Made by a program: the position numbers and the translations under genes. This document shows positions 321 to 24,122 of a stretch of DNA of 26,492 nt, piece after piece (position 1 is the first letter of the stretch; every line of letters begins with the position of its first letter). The stretch covers positions 1 to 26,492 of IMG/VR virus record IMGVR_UViG_3300034190_004231; one strand, written 5' to 3'. This DNA is from a virus. The notes beneath the pieces were generated by a model. That model made no database searches. It was not told the DNA's origin and was given only the letters and a program-made list of their open reading frames with translations.

Positions 321-1227
321 ATTTTCCGTAGTAATCTCTAATTGTTTCCTCATAAGTATTATATTTTAATCTCACACTAAAGGTGTCAAATAGTTTTGAA
401 CTATCTAACATACCTCTTGGTTTACCTGTAGGACCAAGTTTATTATTTACTACAAAATCATAAGGATAAATTTTTTGTAGAACCTGTCCATCTCTAATTA
501 AATTAGAACTTATATTATAAGTTCCTGGCACCCACTTAGCAATGATATTTTTAACTATTTCAACAAAATCGTCGATATAAATACAATCAGCGGCCTCAAC
601 ATTAACTGGTTTATTTTTTTCAATTTGTCTTTCAATATTCATCCAAATCGGAAATTTAGAGTCACCAATCCCATAAACATGAATAGGTCTCAAAATTATA
701 TCTTTTTCTGTACAGTATGCCTCACTTCTTTTTTTACACCTACCATAATAATCAACAGGATTTGTTGAGTCGGTTTCTTTAATCGCTCCTTCCCAAGTAC
801 CATAAACCATAGAAGAGCTTAGATGTAATATAGGACACTTATGTCTTATTTTTAATGTAGCAAGTCCTTCTACAATAGAATTAAGACAGAAATCTTCATA
901 AAAACTTGATAAAATAGCTTCAGACAAACTTCCACAATTTAAAATTAAATCATAAGTTTTACTATCAAAATAATCATAAGACCAACTTCTAATAACCTTT
1001 GCCTTAGTTTTTTTAACTAAATTCATTCTATATTTAATATTTAAATCTCTATGATATTGTTCTAATTTAGAAATATTACCAACACCTACTTTTGGTCCTC
1101 TATATATTTTTTTATATCCAGGATAAGAATAGCCAAATTTATCTAATATGGTAATTTCATGATTTTTTAATGCATATACTAAATGAGATCCAATGAATCC
1201 TAATCCGCCTGTTATAAGAATTTTCAT
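295..1227 (-). CDS. NAD(P)-dependent epimerase/dehydratase (extended SDR family)
   Basis: Extended short-chain dehydrogenase/reductase of 310 residues, the usual length for nucleotide-sugar epimerases and dehydratases. The N-terminal TGGLGFIGSHL (residues 6-16) is the GxxGxxG dinucleotide-binding loop. Residues 137-139 (SSS) and Y161xxxK165 form the Ser/Tyr/Lys catalytic set. The family usually acts on UDP-, GDP- or dTDP-sugars (4-epimerisation, 4,6-dehydration, reduction); the substrate cannot be read from sequence. It overlaps the upstream radical SAM gene by 4 nt and the downstream bS21 gene by 26 nt. With the DegT aminotransferase in the same operon, an amino-sugar or related tailoring route is the simplest reading. 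Confidence 0.85.
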   Translation of the reverse strand: MKILITGGLGFIGSHLVYALKNHEITILDKFGYSYPGYKKIYRGPKVGVGNISKLEQYHRDLNIKYRMNLVKKTKAKVIRSWSYDYFDSKTYDLILNCGSLSEAILSSFYEDFCLNSIVEGLATLKIRHKCPILHLSSSMVYGTWEGAIKETDSTNPVDYYGRCKKRSEAYCTEKDIILRPIHVYGIGDSKFPIWMNIERQIEKNKPVNVEAADCIYIDDFVEIVKNIIAKWVPGTYNISSNLIRDGQVLQKIYPYDFVVNNKLGPTGKPRGMLDSSKLFDTFSVRLKYNTYEETIRDYYGKYENLRSKQ

Positions 1228-2153
1228 TTAAATTGCCCAAAATTGCTTATAAGATGAAGTTCTTTATCAGTGTAGCCATTCATTTGTTCATCTGTCCAAA
1301 CACTTCTATCATTAGAAATACCCCATAAAGTATTAAGATGTATATTTATATTTTTAATATTTTGTATTGCACTTAAAAAAGATTTCCATTTAAAAAGACA
1401 CTTAGGTTCAATCATACACTTGACAATAACCCAGTTTTTGCTATCTCTATTTGATAAAGCTTTTAATTTGTCATACATTTTACGAAAATTTACGTCTTGT
1501 CTATGAATAGAAATATTTAAATTACTATAATTAGATAAATTTACTAAATAATCAATACTTCTACTTCCATTTGTATTTGTAGTAACTTTAGAATCATTAT
1601 TATGTAAATATTTACAAATTTCAATATAATTACTAAATAATGTTGGTTCTCCTCCCCAAAATGTAAATTTTGCGTTTTGCCATCCTAACTCATAAAATCT
1701 ATCAATTGCTTTAATGATGTCTTCAAACTTTTGTTTACTTTTTTCTTTACTGTGAACAGACGTTGGACAATACCAACAATCAAAGTTGCACTGCTTAAGT
1801 AAATACCAACTAATATATTTATCTTGTTCTATTCCTTTAATTTCTTGCAAAAAAGAGTTTTTATCATTTGATTTTTTTGGTGTAGGCATATCTAAATAGC
1901 ACTTACACCAATCTAAAGGACAGGATATCCATAAATTTTTAGGAAAAATAATTTTGTCGTAAATGTTACCTAAGTAACCTGCACTCTCACAATCTCCACC
2001 TCTTACGTCACCTTTTTCATCAATACTTAAAACATGCTGTAATGCACTGCATTTCCAACCCTTCCAATTATTTAATTTTTGTGTCCTAATTTCTTGCACA
2101 CTGAAAGCTGTATTTACATTATTTATGTCAGTAGCAATAATATTTTTTACCAT
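1224..2153 (-). CDS. Radical SAM enzyme with an N-terminal auxiliary Cys cluster
   Basis: 309 residues. The radical SAM [4Fe-4S] motif CNFDCWYC is at residues 122-129 and the SAM-binding FWGGEP at 165-170. Ahead of the barrel lies a Cys-rich segment: C35, a strand reading LSIDEKGDV, GGDC (C55), LGNIYD, then C78, C83 and C85. This resembles the SPASM/twitch domains that bind auxiliary Fe-S clusters, but those usually follow the barrel, whereas here the segment precedes it. The protein ends soon after the barrel. It lies next to a second radical SAM gene (7-nt overlap), so the two may act in succession or as a complex. Substrate unknown; peptide, sugar and small-molecule acceptors are all possible. 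Confidence 0.8.
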   Translation of the reverse strand: MVKNIIATDINNVNTAFSVQEIRTQKLNNWKGWKCSALQHVLSIDEKGDVRGGDCESAGYLGNIYDKIIFPKNLWISCPLDWCKCYLDMPTPKKSNDKNSFLQEIKGIEQDKYISWYLLKQCNFDCWYCPTSVHSKEKSKQKFEDIIKAIDRFYELGWQNAKFTFWGGEPTLFSNYIEICKYLHNNDSKVTTNTNGSRSIDYLVNLSNYSNLNISIHRQDVNFRKMYDKLKALSNRDSKNWVIVKCMIEPKCLFKWKSFLSAIQNIKNINIHLNTLWGISNDRSVWTDEQMNGYTDKELHLISNFGQFK

Positions 2154-2983
2154 ATTTTTTTATCATATATAACATCAGTATCTTTTTCTCTACACATTGA
2201 ACAAATTGATTCTGGTTTGTCTTTTGTTCTAAACCAATTATTTTTTACAGTTTCTGAGTCATTAAAAGATAACGAAGTGTACATGTTTTTATATTTATCC
2301 CAATCCTCTGGATTTGTAATAGTGTTTAACAAATCATCGAGATGTGCTGTGGGCATACATTTCCATAATTTACCTTTGTATAGCCTTGTACAGTGAGACC
2401 ACATACAAACATTGTGAGCTTTGATATAATCTGAATTAAAAGGTTTAATGCCCTCATCATACATTTTAGCCCAGTTACTCGACATGTTTCTTAGTTCAAA
2501 AGTAAATTTATCTTTTTTAAAAGTTTTTGCAAAAGACACTGTTGGATATTTTATTTCATAACGGGTGTAATCACCTATAAAACTTTTGATATTATCTTTC
2601 AGTAACTTTTCATATCTTTTATTTTTTGAATGAATACTAATTACCAACATACATTTAGTATCATTTAAAACTTGTGCTAAATGTAAATTTTTTTTCAATA
2701 ATAACCCATTACTAAATAATCTAAGATCAGTTTTTGGAAACATCTCTCTTGCCATATAAATTAAAGATGACAAATCTTTATATAATAAAGGTTCTCCGCC
2801 TATTATTTGTAACCTTAAAGGATTAATAAATGGTTTCCAGTTTAGTAAATCTTTTTCTAAAGATTGTTTGTTTTGTTTTGAGCTTGTTACTTTAAGGTTA
2901 GAATATACATTACAATGATCACAAGATAAATTACAGTCTAAAGAAATAGGTATATCTAATAAACGTATATCATACTGTTTCAT
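2147..2983 (-). CDS. Radical SAM enzyme with a SPASM-like C-terminal Cys cluster
   Basis: 278 residues. CNLSCDHC at residues 17-24 ligates the radical SAM [4Fe-4S] cluster and IIGGEP (60-65) is the SAM-binding motif. The C-terminus carries C193, C198, C209, C261 and C264 in a SPASM-like arrangement (strand KGKLWKC, then CxxC), suggesting one auxiliary cluster. Such enzymes often modify peptides, but also sugars and nucleoside-like substrates. The gene overlaps the DegT aminotransferase upstream by 14 nt and the second radical SAM gene downstream by 7 nt. The two radical SAM proteins are clearly different and not a recent duplication. Confidence 0.8.
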   Translation of the reverse strand: MKQYDIRLLDIPISLDCNLSCDHCNVYSNLKVTSSKQNKQSLEKDLLNWKPFINPLRLQIIGGEPLLYKDLSSLIYMAREMFPKTDLRLFSNGLLLKKNLHLAQVLNDTKCMLVISIHSKNKRYEKLLKDNIKSFIGDYTRYEIKYPTVSFAKTFKKDKFTFELRNMSSNWAKMYDEGIKPFNSDYIKAHNVCMWSHCTRLYKGKLWKCMPTAHLDDLLNTITNPEDWDKYKNMYTSLSFNDSETVKNNWFRTKDKPESICSMCREKDTDVIYDKKIW

Positions 2984-10360: not shown

Positions 10361-10949
10361 TGCAGAAGATAATATTGTTGTTGTAGGAAATTCTTGGTCA
10401 ATACCAAGTGATGAAGCACCAAAACCTGCATTTTCTTTATTAAACCTTACTAATCGTTGGGAGCATCCAGGCATTACTTTGGATGCACAATCAGAGTATA
10501 TCATAAAAAATAAACTTGTCAAAGCTTTTAAAGTAATTTGGCTGATTGGGCATCATCATCGTGCTGACCCAAAAGGAAACGGAGATTACTTAGTCCCTTA
10601 TGATTGGGGTGAGGGTAATATTTGGGGCAAAATGACTCGTGATATTTGGTTTAAGAAATTTACAAAAATGCCTTGGTATTGGCGAACTAATGCACTTTTC
10701 GTAAAGGCAGCTGTTGAAGGTTTTACTCCTGATAATCTTTTGTTAATTCCTATTTATCGACCAAATATTTTAGAACATAATATGTTACAACACAATTCTT
10801 GTATTTGGTGGGAATATATGCGAGATCTTGCTAAAAATTATTCTGATGGTAGGGGTCATATTAATCAAGTAGGACATACTATTTTTGCTATGAAACTTCG
10901 AGAGGAGATTGAAAACAGGTGGAAGATTTCATTGACAGTAGATGGGTAG
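10353..10949 (+). CDS. SGNH-hydrolase-like protein, divergent from its neighbour
   Basis: 198 residues. Block I is present as VVVGNSWS (residues 9-16, candidate nucleophile S14, with Asn in place of the usual Asp). IGHHHRADP lies in the block III position, and SDGRGHINQVGH (about 164-175) is the block V region with D165/H169. It is therefore a diverged SGNH member, possibly an acyl esterase or acyltransferase. The start overlaps the divergent SGNH start by 8 bp. The 3' end overlaps the oxygenase gene by 31 nt. No ribosome-binding site is visible, so the exact start is less certain than the frame. Confidence 0.65.
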   Translation: MSIAEDNIVVVGNSWSIPSDEAPKPAFSLLNLTNRWEHPGITLDAQSEYIIKNKLVKAFKVIWLIGHHHRADPKGNGDYLVPYDWGEGNIWGKMTRDIWFKKFTKMPWYWRTNALFVKAAVEGFTPDNLLLIPIYRPNILEHNMLQHNSCIWWEYMRDLAKNYSDGRGHINQVGHTIFAMKLREEIENRWKISLTVDG

Positions 10950-11476
10950 ATGCCATCGACGTAGGATTTAATGAATCTATCGCTAAAAATGCTCCTAAAA
11001 TTGTGAAAGAATGTGAGAAAAATTTAAAATTCTTTGGTAATCAATGGTATTCAGATTTTGCAGGTTACAAAGCAATTTTATTAAAACCAGGAGAAGGTTA
11101 TGAATGGCATTTTGATAATATGGATTTTATTAATGGGGTTCTTAGCTGTCCCCGGCCTAATAGATATTGGAGTCAGCTTACTTACTTAACTGATGGACAA
11201 CCTTTTGAAATCGGTGATTGGAATCCTTTAGGAGAGAGGGTTGAACAAACTGAATTTAGTGCACCAATTCCTAATAAAATACTCGCCCGAGTACATCCGA
11301 AACCTGGTGTTACTGTTGTTTTTCCTTGCTTTATGGTTCATAGAATTAGGCCAGTGGTTATTAATAGAAGGTGGGCAATAGTTAGTTTTATTGATAACCC
11401 TAATTATAAAAAAATGAACAAGAAAACTTTAGAATTAATTTTTAAAAGGTATTTTAATGAATATAATGGGTTTTAG
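10919..11476 (+). CDS. 2OG-Fe(II) oxygenase-like hydroxylase
   Basis: 185 residues, GTG start with AGGAG about 11 nt upstream. The double-stranded beta-helix iron site is visible: GYEWHFDNMD (H64, D66), then FPCFMVHRIRPV (H141) and NRRWAIVSF (R150/R151, for 2-oxoglutarate). This is the PKHD/prolyl-4-hydroxylase-like arrangement. It overlaps the SGNH gene upstream (31 nt) and the carbamoyltransferase downstream (20 nt). A hydroxyl group added by such an enzyme could be the acceptor for carbamoylation by the next gene product; that link is inference from adjacency. Confidence 0.75.
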   Translation: MEDFIDSRWVDAIDVGFNESIAKNAPKIVKECEKNLKFFGNQWYSDFAGYKAILLKPGEGYEWHFDNMDFINGVLSCPRPNRYWSQLTYLTDGQPFEIGDWNPLGERVEQTEFSAPIPNKILARVHPKPGVTVVFPCFMVHRIRPVVINRRWAIVSFIDNPNYKKMNKKTLELIFKRYFNEYNGF

Positions 11477-12830
11477 CGCGTATCATCATGATTCAGCAGC
11501 TGTAAATATTTTTAACAATTTAATTGTTGGTGGATCTCAAGAGGAAAGATTTACCCGCAAAAAGTATGATAATAATTTTCCTATTAATACGTTTCGTTGG
11601 TTAAGAAGCCAAAAAGAGCAGACTGATGTTGTTGCTTTTTATGAAAAAAGAGATTTTGTTGAAAGACAAAACATTAAAAGAGAAATTAAAAAAGCACTTC
11701 CAGGCAAATTTGATATTGAATTTTTTGAGCATCATGACTGCCATGCCATGAGTTCTATTTGTACAACTGATTGGGATAGGTGTGCAGTTATGGTTGTTGA
11801 TTCTATGGGAGGTAAATATGCTACTAGTCTTGGTATTTTTGAAGATGATAAAATAACTTGGCTAAAAAGATTTGAATATCCAAACAGTCTAGGATTATTT
11901 TACTCAACCGTAACTCGTTTTTTAGGTTTTAAGCCTTTATCTGATGAAGAAAAGGTCATGTCTGCTGCGGCATATGGCGAGCCAAAGTGGGCTAAATATG
12001 CAAAAGAAAAAATTATTAACACAGAATTAGGAGAATATACTTTACTTCAAGATCTACGTAGAGGTATTGGAGTAGGTGCCTTAGATTGGGATGTTGCTAA
12101 AAGTGCTCAAGATATCTTACAAGAATGCTTAATTAATCTTGCAAGTTGGTTACATTCAGAAACTGGTTCTTCTAAATTAGCATATGCTGGCGGGGTAGCT
12201 TTAAATTGTGTTGCTAACACGGAATTAGCAAGGTATACTGGTTTTAAAGAGATTGCGATTCAACCAGCTGCGGGAGATGCAGGATGTGCTTTAGGAGCGG
12301 CTGCTTTAGTACAAAGACCTCTTTGGGAAGGACCCTACATTGGTTATAATGACTCTTTAAATCAGAACCCAGAAGAAATAGCACACAGAATAATACAAGG
12401 GGAAGTTGTGCCCGTTTTAAATGGTAAAGCTGAATTTGGTCCTCGCGCTCTTGGTAATAGAAGTATTTTATGTTTACCAACTGAACTTAACATTTCAAAA
12501 CTTAACAACATTAAAAAAAGAATTAATGATACTTGGAGACCATATGCTCCTATTTGTCTTGACTCTGTTGCTGAGGATTATTTTGATATCTACATTCCTT
12601 CATACGACATGTTATTTGTTGCTTTTTCAGAGACTGATTTATTTAGAACTCATGACGATACAGCAAGACTTCAACTTGTCAATTCTTCAAAAAATGGATT
12701 TTTAGGAAAAATTCTAGAAATTACTACTGCACATAATCATCCTATTTTAATCAATACAAGTTTAAATGTTAAGGGTAAGCCTATCGTAAATTCTGTTGAT
12801 GATTTCAGAAATGAAATGAAAGTTTTTTAA
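11457..12830 (+). CDS. NodU/CmcH-family carbamoyltransferase
   Basis: 457 residues. Family marks: GFSAYHHDSAAV (about 5-16) and QEERFTRKKYD (28-38), EHHDCHAM with metal-binding His (about 91-98), AYAGGVALNC (about 241-250), KAEFGPRALGNRSIL (about 323-337) and ILINTSLNVKGKPIV near the end. The family transfers a carbamoyl group from carbamoyl phosphate, via carbamoyl-adenylate, to hydroxyls of antibiotics, Nod factors and, in some phages, 5-hydroxymethylcytosine. It is shorter than many members (about 550 or more), but both halves are represented. The acceptor here is unknown. Confidence 0.85.
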   Translation: MNIMGFSAYHHDSAAVNIFNNLIVGGSQEERFTRKKYDNNFPINTFRWLRSQKEQTDVVAFYEKRDFVERQNIKREIKKALPGKFDIEFFEHHDCHAMSSICTTDWDRCAVMVVDSMGGKYATSLGIFEDDKITWLKRFEYPNSLGLFYSTVTRFLGFKPLSDEEKVMSAAAYGEPKWAKYAKEKIINTELGEYTLLQDLRRGIGVGALDWDVAKSAQDILQECLINLASWLHSETGSSKLAYAGGVALNCVANTELARYTGFKEIAIQPAAGDAGCALGAAALVQRPLWEGPYIGYNDSLNQNPEEIAHRIIQGEVVPVLNGKAEFGPRALGNRSILCLPTELNISKLNNIKKRINDTWRPYAPICLDSVAEDYFDIYIPSYDMLFVAFSETDLFRTHDDTARLQLVNSSKNGFLGKILEITTAHNHPILINTSLNVKGKPIVNSVDDFRNEMKVF

Positions 12831-13495
12831 TGTGGGAACATAATAAAAAATACGATTATACATATGATATGCGTGTTGATACGTTACCAACGGGTAGAAC
12901 TTATTTTACTCCTGATGGAGACTATCCAAGTATTACTACTATTTTGGGAAAAACAGCTAATAATGTTTGGTTGCAGGCTTGGAAAGATAAGGTAGGAGAA
13001 GAAGAAGCAGCACGTATTTCAAAAGAAGCGACAGATCGTGGAACTTTAATCCATGAATTTGCAGAACGCCACTTTAATAATGAAGACATTATAAATGATT
13101 TAGTACAGGAATCATCTGATGTAATACAAATGACGCGTGACTTAATTAAAATTACTGAATCAGGTGTTGAAGAAATTTGGGGACAAGAACAGGTTTTGTG
13201 GAGTAACAAGTATAAATACGCTGGTAGATGTGATATGGTGGGTACTTGGAAAGGTAAACCTTCTATTATTGATTTCAAAACATCTAAAAAAACAAAATAC
13301 ATAAAACAAATTAAAGATTATTTTATACAATGTTGCGCATATGCAGTAGCACACAATGAGTTGTATGGAACAGGAATTAAAAACGTTGTTATTCTTATTA
13401 CCGTAGATGGCAAAGAGGCACAATGTTTTGAAACAAGTGCTGTTCCTTTTTTGCCTGAACTTAAAAATAGGCGTAATCAATATGACTTATTGTAA
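12830..13495 (+). CDS. PD-(D/E)XK exonuclease, RecB/Cas4-like nuclease fold
   Basis: 221 residues. RGTLIHEFAERH (70-81; H75), YAGRCDMVG (130-138; D135), SIIDFKTSKK (145-154; D148 and K150) and QCCAYAVAH (167-175; Q and Y) are the ordered motifs of the RecB-type nuclease domain. There is no helicase domain and no Fe-S cysteine set like that of Cas4. Phage relatives act in recombination, DNA end processing or host DNA degradation. Its ATG begins in the last base of the carbamoyltransferase stop (TAATG), so it is co-translated with tailoring enzymes. Confidence 0.8.
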   Translation: MWEHNKKYDYTYDMRVDTLPTGRTYFTPDGDYPSITTILGKTANNVWLQAWKDKVGEEEAARISKEATDRGTLIHEFAERHFNNEDIINDLVQESSDVIQMTRDLIKITESGVEEIWGQEQVLWSNKYKYAGRCDMVGTWKGKPSIIDFKTSKKTKYIKQIKDYFIQCCAYAVAHNELYGTGIKNVVILITVDGKEAQCFETSAVPFLPELKNRRNQYDLL

Positions 13496-13982
13496 ACAAA
13501 TTCCTTTGCCTATTCTTGAAGCTGATATAGAAAAAATTAAATTTTTTTATAAAAATGGTTACAATTTGTTTACTGAAAGACAGTTTAGTAATCCATATTG
13601 GAAATCTTTTGATTTAATTACAAACTCAAAAATTTCTCCTGTTTCTCAAAACCTAAAATGTATTGCTTCTTGGTTAGATTTTATTCAAAATCATACAGGC
13701 ATAAAAAATATAAAAAATTGTTACATTTCCGTTTTAAAACCAAAATGCGCCATTCCTTGGCATACTGATGCTGAAGGAGAAAAATTTACTTCTTCTTTTA
13801 TCACGTCAATTTCTACCGATAAAAGCTTTTTAGAAGTTGATAATATTAAATATACTTATAAGAATGGTTATAGCTATATTTTCAGAGCTGGTTTTAGTCA
13901 TAGGGTGTTAAACTTAAATGATGATTTAAGAATCACTTTATGTACTACGCCCGAAGAAAATCCTTACAGGAAGGAAAAATAA
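13482..13982 (+). CDS. 2OG-Fe(II) oxygenase / Asp-Asn hydroxylase-like protein
   Basis: 166 residues from the ATG at 13482; the frame is open further upstream, but that part lies inside the nuclease gene. IPWHTDAEG (91-99) gives the HxD pair H94/D96, FRAGFSHRVLN (134-144) the distal H140, and DLRITLCTTP (148-157) R150. This is the jelly-roll iron site of 2OG oxygenases, closest in look to aspartyl/asparaginyl beta-hydroxylase-type proteins. Second such protein in the cluster and clearly different from the one at 10919. Confidence 0.65.
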   Translation: MTYCKQIPLPILEADIEKIKFFYKNGYNLFTERQFSNPYWKSFDLITNSKISPVSQNLKCIASWLDFIQNHTGIKNIKNCYISVLKPKCAIPWHTDAEGEKFTSSFITSISTDKSFLEVDNIKYTYKNGYSYIFRAGFSHRVLNLNDDLRITLCTTPEENPYRKEK

Positions 13983-14093
13983 ATGTTAGATTGGTATCAT
14001 GAATTAGTTTTTCACTTTAAATTCTGGCTTAAAAAGAGAAAGTTAAAAAAACTTGATCCTTATATATACGAGGTAAATAAAAATGATGAATGA
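13983..14093 (+). CDS. Very short basic protein (36 residues)
   Basis: MLDWYHELVFHFKFWLKKRK followed by an acidic end NKNDE. It follows the oxygenase stop directly, with AAGGAAAAA as ribosome-binding site, and overlaps the next gene by 11 nt. The aromatic first half and basic second half suggest a peripheral membrane or amphipathic helix. No family known. Confidence 0.45.
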   Translation: MLDWYHELVFHFKFWLKKRKLKKLDPYIYEVNKNDE

Positions 14094-14241
14094 CTATAGG
14101 TTTAGTTTAGAAGGATTAAAAGAAACTGTAGCAAGATTACTAAAAGAAAATGATGAACTTAGAATGAAACTGCGAGTATACGAAGAAAACGTAGGTAAAA
14201 TTGCCCTTAATCCAAAGAGTAAACATGAGCAAAAGAATTAA
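14083..14241 (+). CDS. Short coiled-coil protein (52 residues)
   Basis: A leucine-heptad helix (FSLEGLKETVARLLKENDEL, residues 7-26) and a basic end. GAGGT lies 8 nt before the double ATG. It overlaps genes on both sides (11 and 17 nt). Probably a small oligomeric adaptor; function unknown. Confidence 0.5.
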   Translation: MMNDYRFSLEGLKETVARLLKENDELRMKLRVYEENVGKIALNPKSKHEQKN

Positions 14242-14419
14242 TAAGCATTTAAAGCAGTTCTTTGATGAAAAACCCTTGACTGATTGGGAAAAAAATTTTA
14301 TACTTGGTTGTATAAAAGCTCAAGATAATTCTTGGTACGGGCAACTTACTGTTAAACAGTGGAATAAAATTAAATCAATCAAGGAAAAATATGATGATAA
14401 TAATTTGGGAGACTGTTGA
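14225..14419 (+). CDS. Small unknown protein (64 residues)
   Basis: Starts MSKRINKHLKQFFDEK, basic at the N-terminus and acidic at the end (KYDDNNLGDC). The ATG at 14225 is chosen because no better start exists upstream and the overlap with the previous gene is then 17 nt. No family recognised. Confidence 0.5.
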   Translation: MSKRINKHLKQFFDEKPLTDWEKNFILGCIKAQDNSWYGQLTVKQWNKIKSIKEKYDDNNLGDC

Positions 14420-14422
14420 GTA

Positions 14423-14653
14423 GTGTGGCAAATTATTATTATTATGATGGTTGCTCTAGGAGCTGAAACAGATGCCATTGAAATTTCTCATAATAATGGT
14501 AAGCCTTTACGCTTTGAGTCTCAAGCGATTTGTTATGCGCATGTTGAGGCTAATTTAGAAAAACTTAAATCTTTTGCTTCTTCACAATTCGATGGTGCCC
14601 CTGTTAAGTCAATAACTTGTGTAAAAACCCCGTTTGGAATTAATAATGTATGA
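14423..14653 (+). CDS. Small exported or membrane-anchored protein, GTG start
   Basis: 76 residues. The N-terminal MWQIIIIMMVALGAETDA reads as a short signal or anchor, followed by a mixed domain with two cysteines (C37 and about C68) that could form a disulfide in the periplasm. GTG start with GGGAG about 11 nt upstream. Overlaps the thermonuclease gene by 8 nt. Unknown function. Confidence 0.5.
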   Translation: MWQIIIIMMVALGAETDAIEISHNNGKPLRFESQAICYAHVEANLEKLKSFASSQFDGAPVKSITCVKTPFGINNV

Positions 14654-15074
14654 GTATAAATGTAGAGTTATTAAAGTGGTTGATGGCGATACTATTGATG
14701 TTGACATTGACCTTGGCTTTAATATTACCTTGTCTAATCAACGCATTAGATTACAAGGTGTTGACACTCCAGAATCGCGTACAAGAGACTTGGAAGAAAA
14801 AAAGTTTGGATTACTTGCGAAAGAAGTTGTTGAGTCCTATTGTCCCGTAGATAAATTAATCACTCTTAAAACTACTAAAGACGAAAGAGGTAAGTTTGGT
14901 CGTATCTTAGGAGATTTTATTGTCTATGATGGAACAACAGACTCATGGAAGATGCTTGGTGAAATTTTAATTAATAATCATTTTGCTGTTGCATATCATG
15001 GACAATCAAAAGAAGAGATTAAAGAAGCTCATTTTTTCAATAGAGAAAAAGTTAGAGGACTTCTCAAAGAATGA
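14646..15074 (+). CDS. Thermonuclease / staphylococcal nuclease-like protein
   Basis: 142 residues from the ATG at 14646. SNase fold with VVDGDTIDVDID (11-22; D15 as metal ligand), RIRLQGVDTPE (33-43; R35, D40, E43) and RGKFGRILGD (81-90; R86). All positions equivalent to the catalytic set of staphylococcal nuclease are present, so it is likely active as a calcium-dependent nuclease. There is no signal peptide, unlike secreted SNases. In a lytic phage a role in host DNA breakdown is plausible. It overlaps the next oxygenase gene by 4 nt. Confidence 0.85.
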   Translation: MYEYKCRVIKVVDGDTIDVDIDLGFNITLSNQRIRLQGVDTPESRTRDLEEKKFGLLAKEVVESYCPVDKLITLKTTKDERGKFGRILGDFIVYDGTTDSWKMLGEILINNHFAVAYHGQSKEEIKEAHFFNREKVRGLLKE

Positions 15075-15718
15075 AAACAAAAGTAAATTTTATTTCTCCG
15101 TTTGACGTGTCCATAATGAAAGCGAAGTGCCCTCAAAATTACATTGACATGTTAATTGAGACAAGCGGTCAAATATTTAAAGATGACGATTTGTGTGTAA
15201 GACTCGATGCATCTGATGGTTTAGTAGGTAATGTAACTAATGAGGTGCATGTTCCTCAACTTCCTGCTATTAAGAAAATTAATTACTGGATTGAAGATTT
15301 AGCTATTAAATATGCTCGTAAAGATTTTCTTAAAAAGCAAAAAGAATATTCTGAATTACAGAAAAAACATTTTTCAAAAGATCCCCATGTTCAAATTACA
15401 TCTGAATGGATTGTAAGGATGAACCCAGGAGATTTTAATCCGGCTCATTTTCATACTAATTGTCATCTTTCCGGGTTACTGTATTTAAAAATTCCTGATG
15501 GTTTAGAGCGTGACGCCGGAGGTAACTTGCATTTTTTACACGGTAATCCTGCTACTTTTTACACAAATCAATATCAAATTACTCCAAAAGTAGGTGATAC
15601 TTACTTATGGCCCTCTTGGTTACAACATTTTGTCTATCCTTATAAATGTGAAGGTGAACGATGGGTTATGCCATTTAATTTAATTGTTGCTCATGGGGAT
15701 GAAACAACAGTAATATGA
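15071..15718 (+). CDS. Phage-type 2OG-Fe(II) oxygenase (TIGR02466-like)
   Basis: 215 residues. The pattern SEWIVRMNPGDFNPAHFHTN, then SGLLYLKIPDG (134-144) and a late LWPSWLQHFVYPYKCEGERW matches the 2OG oxygenase family common in marine phages. Candidate iron ligands are H126/H128 and H186, and R197 would bind 2-oxoglutarate. Members have unknown substrates. It overlaps genes on both sides by 4 nt. It is the third oxygenase-fold protein of the cluster and unlike the other two in sequence. Confidence 0.75.
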   Translation: MKTKVNFISPFDVSIMKAKCPQNYIDMLIETSGQIFKDDDLCVRLDASDGLVGNVTNEVHVPQLPAIKKINYWIEDLAIKYARKDFLKKQKEYSELQKKHFSKDPHVQITSEWIVRMNPGDFNPAHFHTNCHLSGLLYLKIPDGLERDAGGNLHFLHGNPATFYTNQYQITPKVGDTYLWPSWLQHFVYPYKCEGERWVMPFNLIVAHGDETTVI

Positions 15719-22340: not shown

Positions 22341-22466
22341 ATGAGCACGTTAGGAATATTTTGGATTTGTTCTGTAATAGTATCTTACGGTGTTGGTCTT
22401 TTTATTGGGGCTAAATTATTTAAGAAGAAACGAATTAAAAAAAGTAAAAAACCAAGATTTAACTAA
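22341..22466 (+). CDS. Short single-span membrane protein with basic tail
   Basis: 41 residues: a hydrophobic span (about 3-26, LGIFWICSVIVSYGVGLFIG) and a Lys/Arg-rich tail (KLFKKKRIKKSKKPRFN). AAGGAT lies 6 nt before the ATG. The strongly basic end should stay cytoplasmic. No family known. Confidence 0.55.
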   Translation: MSTLGIFWICSVIVSYGVGLFIGAKLFKKKRIKKSKKPRFN

Positions 22467-22476
22467 TAAACTTTAA

Positions 22477-22506
22477 TTGGCACTAAAATTTAGTTTATAC
22501 TATACT
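22477..22506 (+). promoter_or_regulatory. Promoter upstream of the Cys-rich peptide
   Basis: TTGGCA (22477-22482, five of six), 18-nt spacer, TATACT (22501-22506, five of six); an overlapping TATACT at 22496 has a poorer spacing. Transcription would begin about 22513, just upstream of the AAGGAGGT ribosome-binding site at 22511-22518. It begins only 10 nt after the previous stop codon. Confidence 0.6.
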
Positions 22507-22522
22507 TTAGAAGGAGGTTATT

Positions 22523-22636
22523 ATGGTTAGTATTGATTGTAATAATGAAGAATGTAAAAATCCCTTTTGTACATGTGATCCTTGCGAATGCACAGAAAAA
22601 GATCCATGTCCTTGTTGTGTAAGTGAGTCTCAATAA
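22523..22636 (+). CDS. Cys-rich metallothionein-like peptide (37 residues)
   Basis: Nine cysteines in 37 residues: C6, C11, C16, C18, C21, C23, C29, C31 and C32, in CxC, CxxC and CC arrangements (key part CTCDPCEC and CPCC). No hydrophobic segment or signal peptide, so cytoplasmic and reduced. The density and spacing suggest binding of Zn, Cu or Cd, as in metallothioneins. It has its own promoter and the best Shine-Dalgarno in the window (AAGGAGGT, 4-nt spacing), so expression should be high. Its stop shares a base with the next ATG. It may be a metal buffer, a chaperone or a structural zinc knot. Confidence 0.7.
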   Translation: MVSIDCNNEECKNPFCTCDPCECTEKDPCPCCVSESQ

Positions 22637-23100
22637 TGCCTGAGGTCGAAATAGGTGGTGCAACCATAAGGGGAGGAAAACTTTTACTAGTTTTGCCTTT
22701 GCTTGGTTCTTTAATAGGGGCATTATGGGGCGGCTTTGAGTTCTATAAAGATTACATGGATATGAAAGAAAAAATTGAAACATATGTTGCTCCTGATTTA
22801 TCAGGTTTTGATAAAAGAATAGCGATCATGGAATCTAGAATGAATGAAGAAATAGACTTATTCAAAGAAGAAATGAACGTTCTTAAAGACGAGGTCAAAT
22901 TAATTGCAGGTATTAACAGAGACATGAAAGTTGATATGAAAACTGATATTCGTCGTATTGAGAAAATTGTTGAAGATACGGAGTCCCGTGTCAAAGAGGA
23001 TAGTCGTGAATTTACAAGAGACATGAAAGATCTTAGAATTAATTTATCTAAAAAAATTAAACAAGCTCTTCAAAATCCTTTGGCAAACATGGGAAATTAA
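22636..23100 (+). CDS. Membrane-anchored coiled-coil protein
   Basis: 154 residues. A hydrophobic span (about 14-33, KLLLVLPLLGSLIGALWGGF) is followed by a long, charged heptad-like helix (about 45-145). This is the shape of a spanin-like or membrane tethering protein, but no family is recognised. It is coupled to the Cys-rich peptide by a TAATG overlap, so is transcribed with it. Confidence 0.6.
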   Translation: MPEVEIGGATIRGGKLLLVLPLLGSLIGALWGGFEFYKDYMDMKEKIETYVAPDLSGFDKRIAIMESRMNEEIDLFKEEMNVLKDEVKLIAGINRDMKVDMKTDIRRIEKIVEDTESRVKEDSREFTRDMKDLRINLSKKIKQALQNPLANMGN

Positions 23101-23925: not shown

Positions 23926-24122
23926 TGTCTTGGAAAGAATCAGGAGATAGTGTATCTTATGGTAGAGGAATACCATATTATGATCTTCAAGAGATGAAAA
24001 AGTCTGTTCATAGGTGTCATGTTTTATGGAAGAAGAGATTACCCATGTATGATACAATGTATTATCTGGGTATCATGCCTTATGGGCATTTGCAAAGGAA
24101 ATATAAATGTGGTTCTGGTTAA
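23925..24122 (+). CDS. Small basic protein of unknown function
   Basis: 65 residues, rich in Tyr, Arg and Lys (ESGDSVSYGRGIPYYDLQEM, then HRCHVLWKKRLPMYDTMYYL), ending KYKCGSG. No motif recognised. It overlaps the next gene by 16 nt and shares a base with the previous stop. Confidence 0.5.
   Translation: MSWKESGDSVSYGRGIPYYDLQEMKKSVHRCHVLWKKRLPMYDTMYYLGIMPYGHLQRKYKCGSG

Follow-up and report, generated by a model that had tools for sequence, protein, structure and literature searches.

The window analysed here (the whole of a 26,492-base IMG/VR virus record) encodes a 37-residue peptide with nine cysteines, which is probably a virus-encoded, cytoplasmic, metallothionein-like metal-thiolate buffer produced from its own small expression cassette, as judged by sequence comparison (Table 1). 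It belongs to a large family without a previous name that many marine phages carry, and the copy in the window is an ordinary one; the family is new and the functional kind (metallothionein) is already known. A broader proposal, given about even confidence, is that these peptides are virus-encoded metallothioneins spread across marine tailed phages as mobile promoter-SD-ORF cassettes in variable slots, selected for nine thiolates (one M3Cys9-type cluster) over exact positions and coupled in some lineages to viral Fe-S assembly genes.

Table 1. Features of the peptide gene and its surroundings in the window (SD, Shine-Dalgarno; L124 and L130, the closest orthologues)
Feature	Position	Strand	Remarks
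Nine-Cys metallothionein-like peptide, 37 aa	22523..22636	+	ATG...TAA; Cys framework and homologues
Cassette: ORF with its SD and conserved promoter-like block	22470..22636	+	kept in L124 and L130; absent from related loci
Upstream block TTTAATTGG-N4-AAAATTTA	22472..22492	+	identical in both orthologues; spans the -35-like TTGGCA
-35-like TTGGCA	22477-22482	+	inside conserved upstream block
-10-like TATACT	22501..22506	+	18 nt from TTGGCA; TATAAT in both orthologues
SD AAGGAGGT	22511..22518	+	4 nt upstream of ATG
41-aa ORF with hydrophobic segment, upstream neighbour	22341..22466	+	found without the peptide in L123 and L129 (empty slots)
154-aa ORF, downstream neighbour marking the slot	22636..23100	+	start overlaps peptide stop (TAATG)

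The peptide (MVSIDCNNEECKNPFCTCDPCECTEKDPCPCCVSESQ) has cysteine at 9 of its 37 positions, one phenylalanine, and no histidine. Its cysteines are spaced C-x4-C-x4-C-x-C-x2-C-x-C-x5-C-x-C-C and the chain ends after CxCC, which bears out the number and spacing given in an earlier note on this DNA. The CxC and CxxC pairs described there were also found, but a single CC is present rather than several, and the feature placed at 22477 begins there with the promoter-like hexamer, whereas the gene itself starts at 22523. No signal peptide was seen in the peptide, and an AlphaFold2 model (pLDDT 72.7, pTM 0.33) was without secondary structure and too poor to inform on the fold. Chance occurrence was assessed by generating 200 copies of the window from a first-order Markov model; across all 200, a Cys-rich ORF (≥ 9 Cys, ≥ 20% Cys) arose once, versus once in the real window. 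The sequence has the marks of the metallothionein class, namely a short chain, at least about 20% Cys in CxC/CxxC motifs, few aromatic residues, and a number and spacing of Cys that are conserved across homologues.

The family was gathered by using degenerate DNA patterns, a wide one back-translated from CTCDPCxC and a stricter one for the subfamily of the window peptide. In IMG/VR, these patterns revealed a large family: at least 119 stretches matched the wide pattern, at least 99 hold a short, ATG-started, Cys-rich ORF, and the stricter pattern was found in 30 viral contigs. Across an alignment of 26 diverse members, the core C...C-x-C-D-P-C-x-C was invariant, cysteines were the most conserved residues, and the residues between them varied freely except for T, D, P, and N. 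The earlier note had named loss of cysteines among homologues as one finding that would speak against it; this was checked, and the homologues did not bear it out: besides the invariant core, nine cysteines were kept in 70 of the 91 distinct viral peptides among the matches listed (eight in 13, seven in 7, and ten in 1). Aromatic residues were absent from 67 of these 91 peptides, and the family is strongly acidic, with a median net charge of -7.

Two cysteine arrangements are predominant. Members of subfamily A, including the window peptide, end in CxCC, and those of subfamily B (e.g., MCNNEECKCENCTCDPCECTTENPCGCDENI) have an additional Cys three residues upstream of the core and a CxC tail. 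Three or more tail cysteines occurred in 1 of 50 peptides with the extra Cys of C-x-x-C-T-C-D-P-C versus 22 of 41 without it (Fisher 6e-9, relatedness being ignored; the swap may trace back to a small number of events), and differing arrangements were found in one and the same Hsp20/M15-peptidase slot. Because one cysteine occupies either of two places and almost never both, it is the number of thiolates that is kept rather than their position, and a fixed number with shifting position would fit the expectation for a single metal-thiolate cluster. Conserved tails (such as DEDLVAAV, DDEELVAAI, and EFDDEQVAPV) were observed in 24 of the 91 peptides, all of subfamily B (e.g., L037, L041, L044, and L069), and resemble C-terminal signals for recognition or degradation.

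The peptide gene is coding and under purifying selection. All nine cysteines are kept in L124 and L130 at dN of 0.14-0.26 and dS of 0.49-1.38, and dN/dS among the three close orthologues was ~0.2-0.3, with synonymous changes within conserved Cys codons. A spurious ORF, to which a length of only 37 codons and the lack of a database family might point, is scarcely credible and is refuted by the homologues, given that dN is below dS, the SD is conserved, and the framework is kept in 91 distinct viral peptides.

The earlier note had assigned the gene its own promoter and the best ribosome-binding site; conservation supports the former, and the latter was confirmed. TTGGCA-N18-TATACT is present with a score of 10/12, within a promoter-like block conserved in the three orthologues, and the anti-SD duplex of AAGGAGGT (-12.4 kcal/mol) was the strongest of 44 starts compared (runner-up -11.5), at 4-nt spacing. 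Promoter-like sites in the region were in mild excess over chance (28 found vs 19 expected). Since the -10 element ends 16 nt upstream of the ATG, the predicted transcript start lies inside the SD; transcription would begin near 22513 and yield an unusual leader of ~10 nt that starts with GGAGG. The peptide is predicted to be abundant.

The window, L124, and L130 all conserve TTTAATTGG-N4-AAAATTTA...TATAMT...AAGGAGR followed by the peptide ORF and the TAATG overlap with the 154-aa ORF, though the genes upstream of the cassette differ (a 41-aa ORF, an 84-aa ORF, and a 511-aa ORF). The 154-aa ORF, which by eye has an N-terminal hydrophobic segment and then a coiled coil, has 506 relatives in IMG/VR, and the Cys peptide was upstream in 2 of 32 loci inspected. 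Where the peptide is missing, the 154-aa homologue follows a structural ORF by ~10 nt (L121, L122, and L140) or is preceded by the 41-aa ORF only (L123 and L129); a different CxxC small ORF occupies the slot in L125-L128, and a different, basic ORF fills it in the cultured phage HTVC115P, which has a relative of the 154-aa ORF. As block, SD, and ORF are shared by orthologues despite differing upstream genes, and related phages have empty slots, these elements form a self-contained cassette. The upstream block was rejected as a general promoter of the phage on account of its single full match in the window. Its matches in IMG/VR comprised both orthologue contigs and 58 others, and a 17-base AT-rich pattern could reach about that many by chance. 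Cys-rich small ORFs of other, unrelated kinds (MNSCESCGHECHCSAGECGRCGCDICDCG..., MSCNHEPHCATACDESGCTCIHCACDDCSGD) were observed at relatives of the 154-aa ORF (L165:8032, L166, L173, and L140:387).

The stop-start overlap in the window, L124, and L130 could also be that of a regulatory leader peptide, whose Cys codons would gauge the supply of Cys-tRNA and govern how the overlapping 154-aa ORF is translated. This is highly improbable, as family members occur in many unrelated contexts with downstream gaps of tens to hundreds of nucleotides, and it is the amino acid framework, beyond a run of Cys codons, that is under selection. Alternatively, a small effector held together by zinc in the manner of a zinc knuckle might bind a host protein and, for example, block host transcription or defence; a strong SD and a promoter-like block of its own point to such a stand-alone product, and the gene is present in only some of the otherwise conserved slots. 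An effector seems decidedly unlikely, given that the inter-Cys residues vary freely except for T, D, P, and N, unlike a protein-binding surface, and that cellular relatives adjoin metal regulators.

Viral contexts were read around ~125 viral members. The peptide was found between a DUF1353 gene with a CxxC small ORF and an ‘MWFW’ ORF (by eye, a similar ORF lies at 24107 in the window), between Hsp20 and an M15 peptidase followed by what by eye is a DNA polymerase-like ORF, between a nicotinamide/cytidylyltransferase-like ORF (by eye) and SNase and IscU, and directly after IscA and IscU in that order (L036, L044, L049, and L106). In a fifth context, the surroundings were a T4 gp15-type tail sheath stabiliser and the ORFs next to it. 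Pfam profiles identified IscU (NifU_N, 6e-55) and IscA (Fe-S_biosyn). Directly upstream of the peptide, the slot in L004, L024, L047, L100, L324, L326, L329, and L334 contains another small Cys-rich protein, encoded by an ORF of 48-64 aa that reads CKNCGHESHCG...EVCKxCRCxxC...DWG and has no Pfam match.

The peptide lies within the fetched flanks of 28 of 76 viral IscU loci, at differing positions; the other 48 show none, many of them being short contigs, and most members, the window peptide included, have no isc gene nearby. The tie to Fe-S assembly is therefore real in some viral lineages and not general. The support for nearby iron-sulfur and iron enzymes envisaged in the earlier note thus has a counterpart in the IscU/IscA adjacency of other viral lineages, but not in the window, where the Fe and Fe-S enzymes lie 7-21 kb from the peptide gene. 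That the peptide is itself an iron-sulphur scaffold or carrier partnering viral IscU/IscA is suggested by its place directly after IscA-IscU or before SNase-IscU and by the 28 loci. It is quite unlikely in view of the 48 loci without it and the many members without isc genes, and short CxC-rich peptides typically bind Zn or Cu. An IscU match in ‘Acinetobacter phage MD-2021a’ was rejected as viral evidence, its surroundings reading as a bacterial isc operon.

Cellular genomes (84,980 species) were scanned by using the CTCDPCxC pattern, and 33 of 112 matches lay inside an ORF that is short and Cys-rich and starts with ATG; by name, none of the matching records belonged to Pelagibacterales, Prochlorococcus, or Synechococcus. 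The fullest cellular matches share the full framework (e.g., MSKDNGCSNPHCKCVNCTCDPCLCTPDNPCACE). Because look-alikes were chosen by the CTCDPC pattern, the more divergent ones could be convergent, and shorter repeats such as CDPCECDPCEC may be so. L242 looks like a viral contig binned with cells, and L287 is probably another. The cellular contexts point to metals. A ZntR-like MerR regulator overlaps or directly precedes the look-alike in L263 (above the NCBIfam cut-off) and L282, a CsoR/RicR-like copper repressor gene lies 21-60 nt downstream in L245 and L291, and ArsR/SmtB genes (regulators above cut-off) overlap it in L258 and L232. Look-alikes also occur near a copper-resistance-type multicopper oxidase in L283 and near an arsenate reductase-like gene in L265. 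BlaI/CopY-like repressors bear the array as an N-terminal extension in L244, L296, and, by eye, L274; all three belong to Acidimicrobiaceae and are probably metal-responsive. In an uncultured Tenericutes bin (L289:6103-6438), a ferredoxin was observed whose C-terminal tail is a metallothionein-like Cys array.

By eye, HxlR-type regulators lie near three cellular relatives (L265, L277, and L286) and another relative (L207) is just upstream of a superoxide dismutase gene. These neighbours would suit a thiol redox buffer or oxidant sink, with cysteines cycling as disulphides and shielding phage enzymes from oxidative or electrophile stress without metal storage. We consider this unlikely, since dedicated metal sensors (ZntR, CsoR, ArsR) are commoner among the cellular neighbours and the strict keeping of nine thiols, an odd number, in CxC spacing suits a metal cluster better than paired disulphides.

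The window also encodes a phage lysozyme, a spanin-like ORF, a carbamoyltransferase, and radical SAM and 2OG-Fe(II) enzymes, and the closest cultured relatives of individual genes are found in Pelagibacter phages. This one phage fragment encodes two radical SAM proteins together with three 2OG-Fe(II)/Asp-Arg hydroxylase-type enzymes (1227-2983, minus strand, and 10919-15715, plus strand), and a phage-encoded Na/Pi-cotransporter domain (PF02690; 19018-19494) is flanked by the lysozyme and spanin-like genes. Eight phage records scanned by DNA pattern (HTVC008M, HTVC115P, four cyanophages, C48C1, and MaAM05) were without the nine-Cys peptide; a pattern match in P-SSM4 was rejected as a chance hit lacking the family framework. 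An SmtA-like metallothionein (44% identity) was observed at 111778-111936 of MW495066.1, a record named Microcystis phage MaAM05 that also encodes isc-type genes and may be non-phage.

Metal buffering is the best-supported reading of the peptide. It draws on the nine cysteines in CxC/CxxC/CC spacing, the invariant core, the constancy of nine, and dN below dS, together with cellular look-alikes beside metal sensors and viral relatives beside IscU/IscA. Nine-Cys beta domains of animal metallothioneins form M3Cys9 clusters, and by analogy this stoichiometry is plausible for the phage peptide: its nine thiolates would most likely enclose either some three divalent d10 ions (Zn and possibly Cd) or several Cu(I) ions in one metal-sulfur cluster. 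During infection, such a high-affinity buffer could take up Zn or Cu freed by the breakdown of host proteins and nucleic acids, pass metal to new phage enzymes, or lower the free soft metal that attacks Fe-S proteins. Metal binding, its stoichiometry, the identity of the metal, and the benefit are what we infer here, and none of the three roles named in the earlier note (countering metal release, supplying zinc, and supporting iron-sulfur and iron enzymes) is singled out. In classical metallothioneins Lys adjoins Cys, whereas these peptides are strongly acidic (median -7); this speaks against the metal buffer, as does the fact that no known metallothionein is significantly similar. Should the family bind metal, ocean phages would bring their own metal buffer, the metal economy of infection would become directly testable, and a viral player would be added to marine Zn, Cu, and Fe cycling. 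With their constant nine thiolates, peptides of 28-38 residues would offer a minimal system from nature in which to study M3S9 clusters.

Known families were compared by using profile and sequence searches. The window peptide had no match in Pfam (PF02069 absent at E up to 1), PHROGs v4, or NCBIfam (E up to 10). None of 26 family members matched PF02069 at E up to 10, and two of them reached phrog_1178 (PHROGs v4) only at E 0.45 or worse. Without a profile in these three libraries, the family is probably missed by annotation pipelines. The best PDB profile match was a fish metallothionein (E 0.19, non-significant), and two family members had no tblastn match among 50,697 phage records, a search in which low-complexity masking may hide such peptides. 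No viral or phage metallothioneins were found in open-library literature searches; an SmtA-type metallothionein has reportedly been described in a cyanophage.

The peptide resembles SmtA/BmtA proteins (PF02069) in being small, cytoplasmic, and Cys-rich with C-x-C-x2-C-x-C spacing, and its cellular look-alikes likewise abut ArsR/SmtB-type and other metal sensors. Despite the common spacing, it was placed outside that family because there is no PF02069 match. The second half of SmtA/BmtA is a zinc-finger with a GATA-type fold and His ligands (PMC10612145); the phage peptide lacks this half, and the order of, and residues around, its cysteines differ (C-T-C-D-P-C). With the beta domain of animal metallothioneins it shares an equal number of thiolates in a short, CxC-rich chain, but it is very acidic rather than Lys-rich, has a single domain, and shows no significant similarity. 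The same CTCDPC array is borne by some BlaI/CopY-like relatives of CopY/TcrY-type copper repressors (L244, L274, and L296), where it is N-terminal in a DNA-binding regulator, whereas the phage peptide stands alone. Viral nifU/iscU Fe-S assembly auxiliary genes have been reported in marine viromes (PMC8940887); the peptide is a different protein and is not adjacent to them in the window, but the likeness is one of place, as some members of its family directly adjoin such genes.
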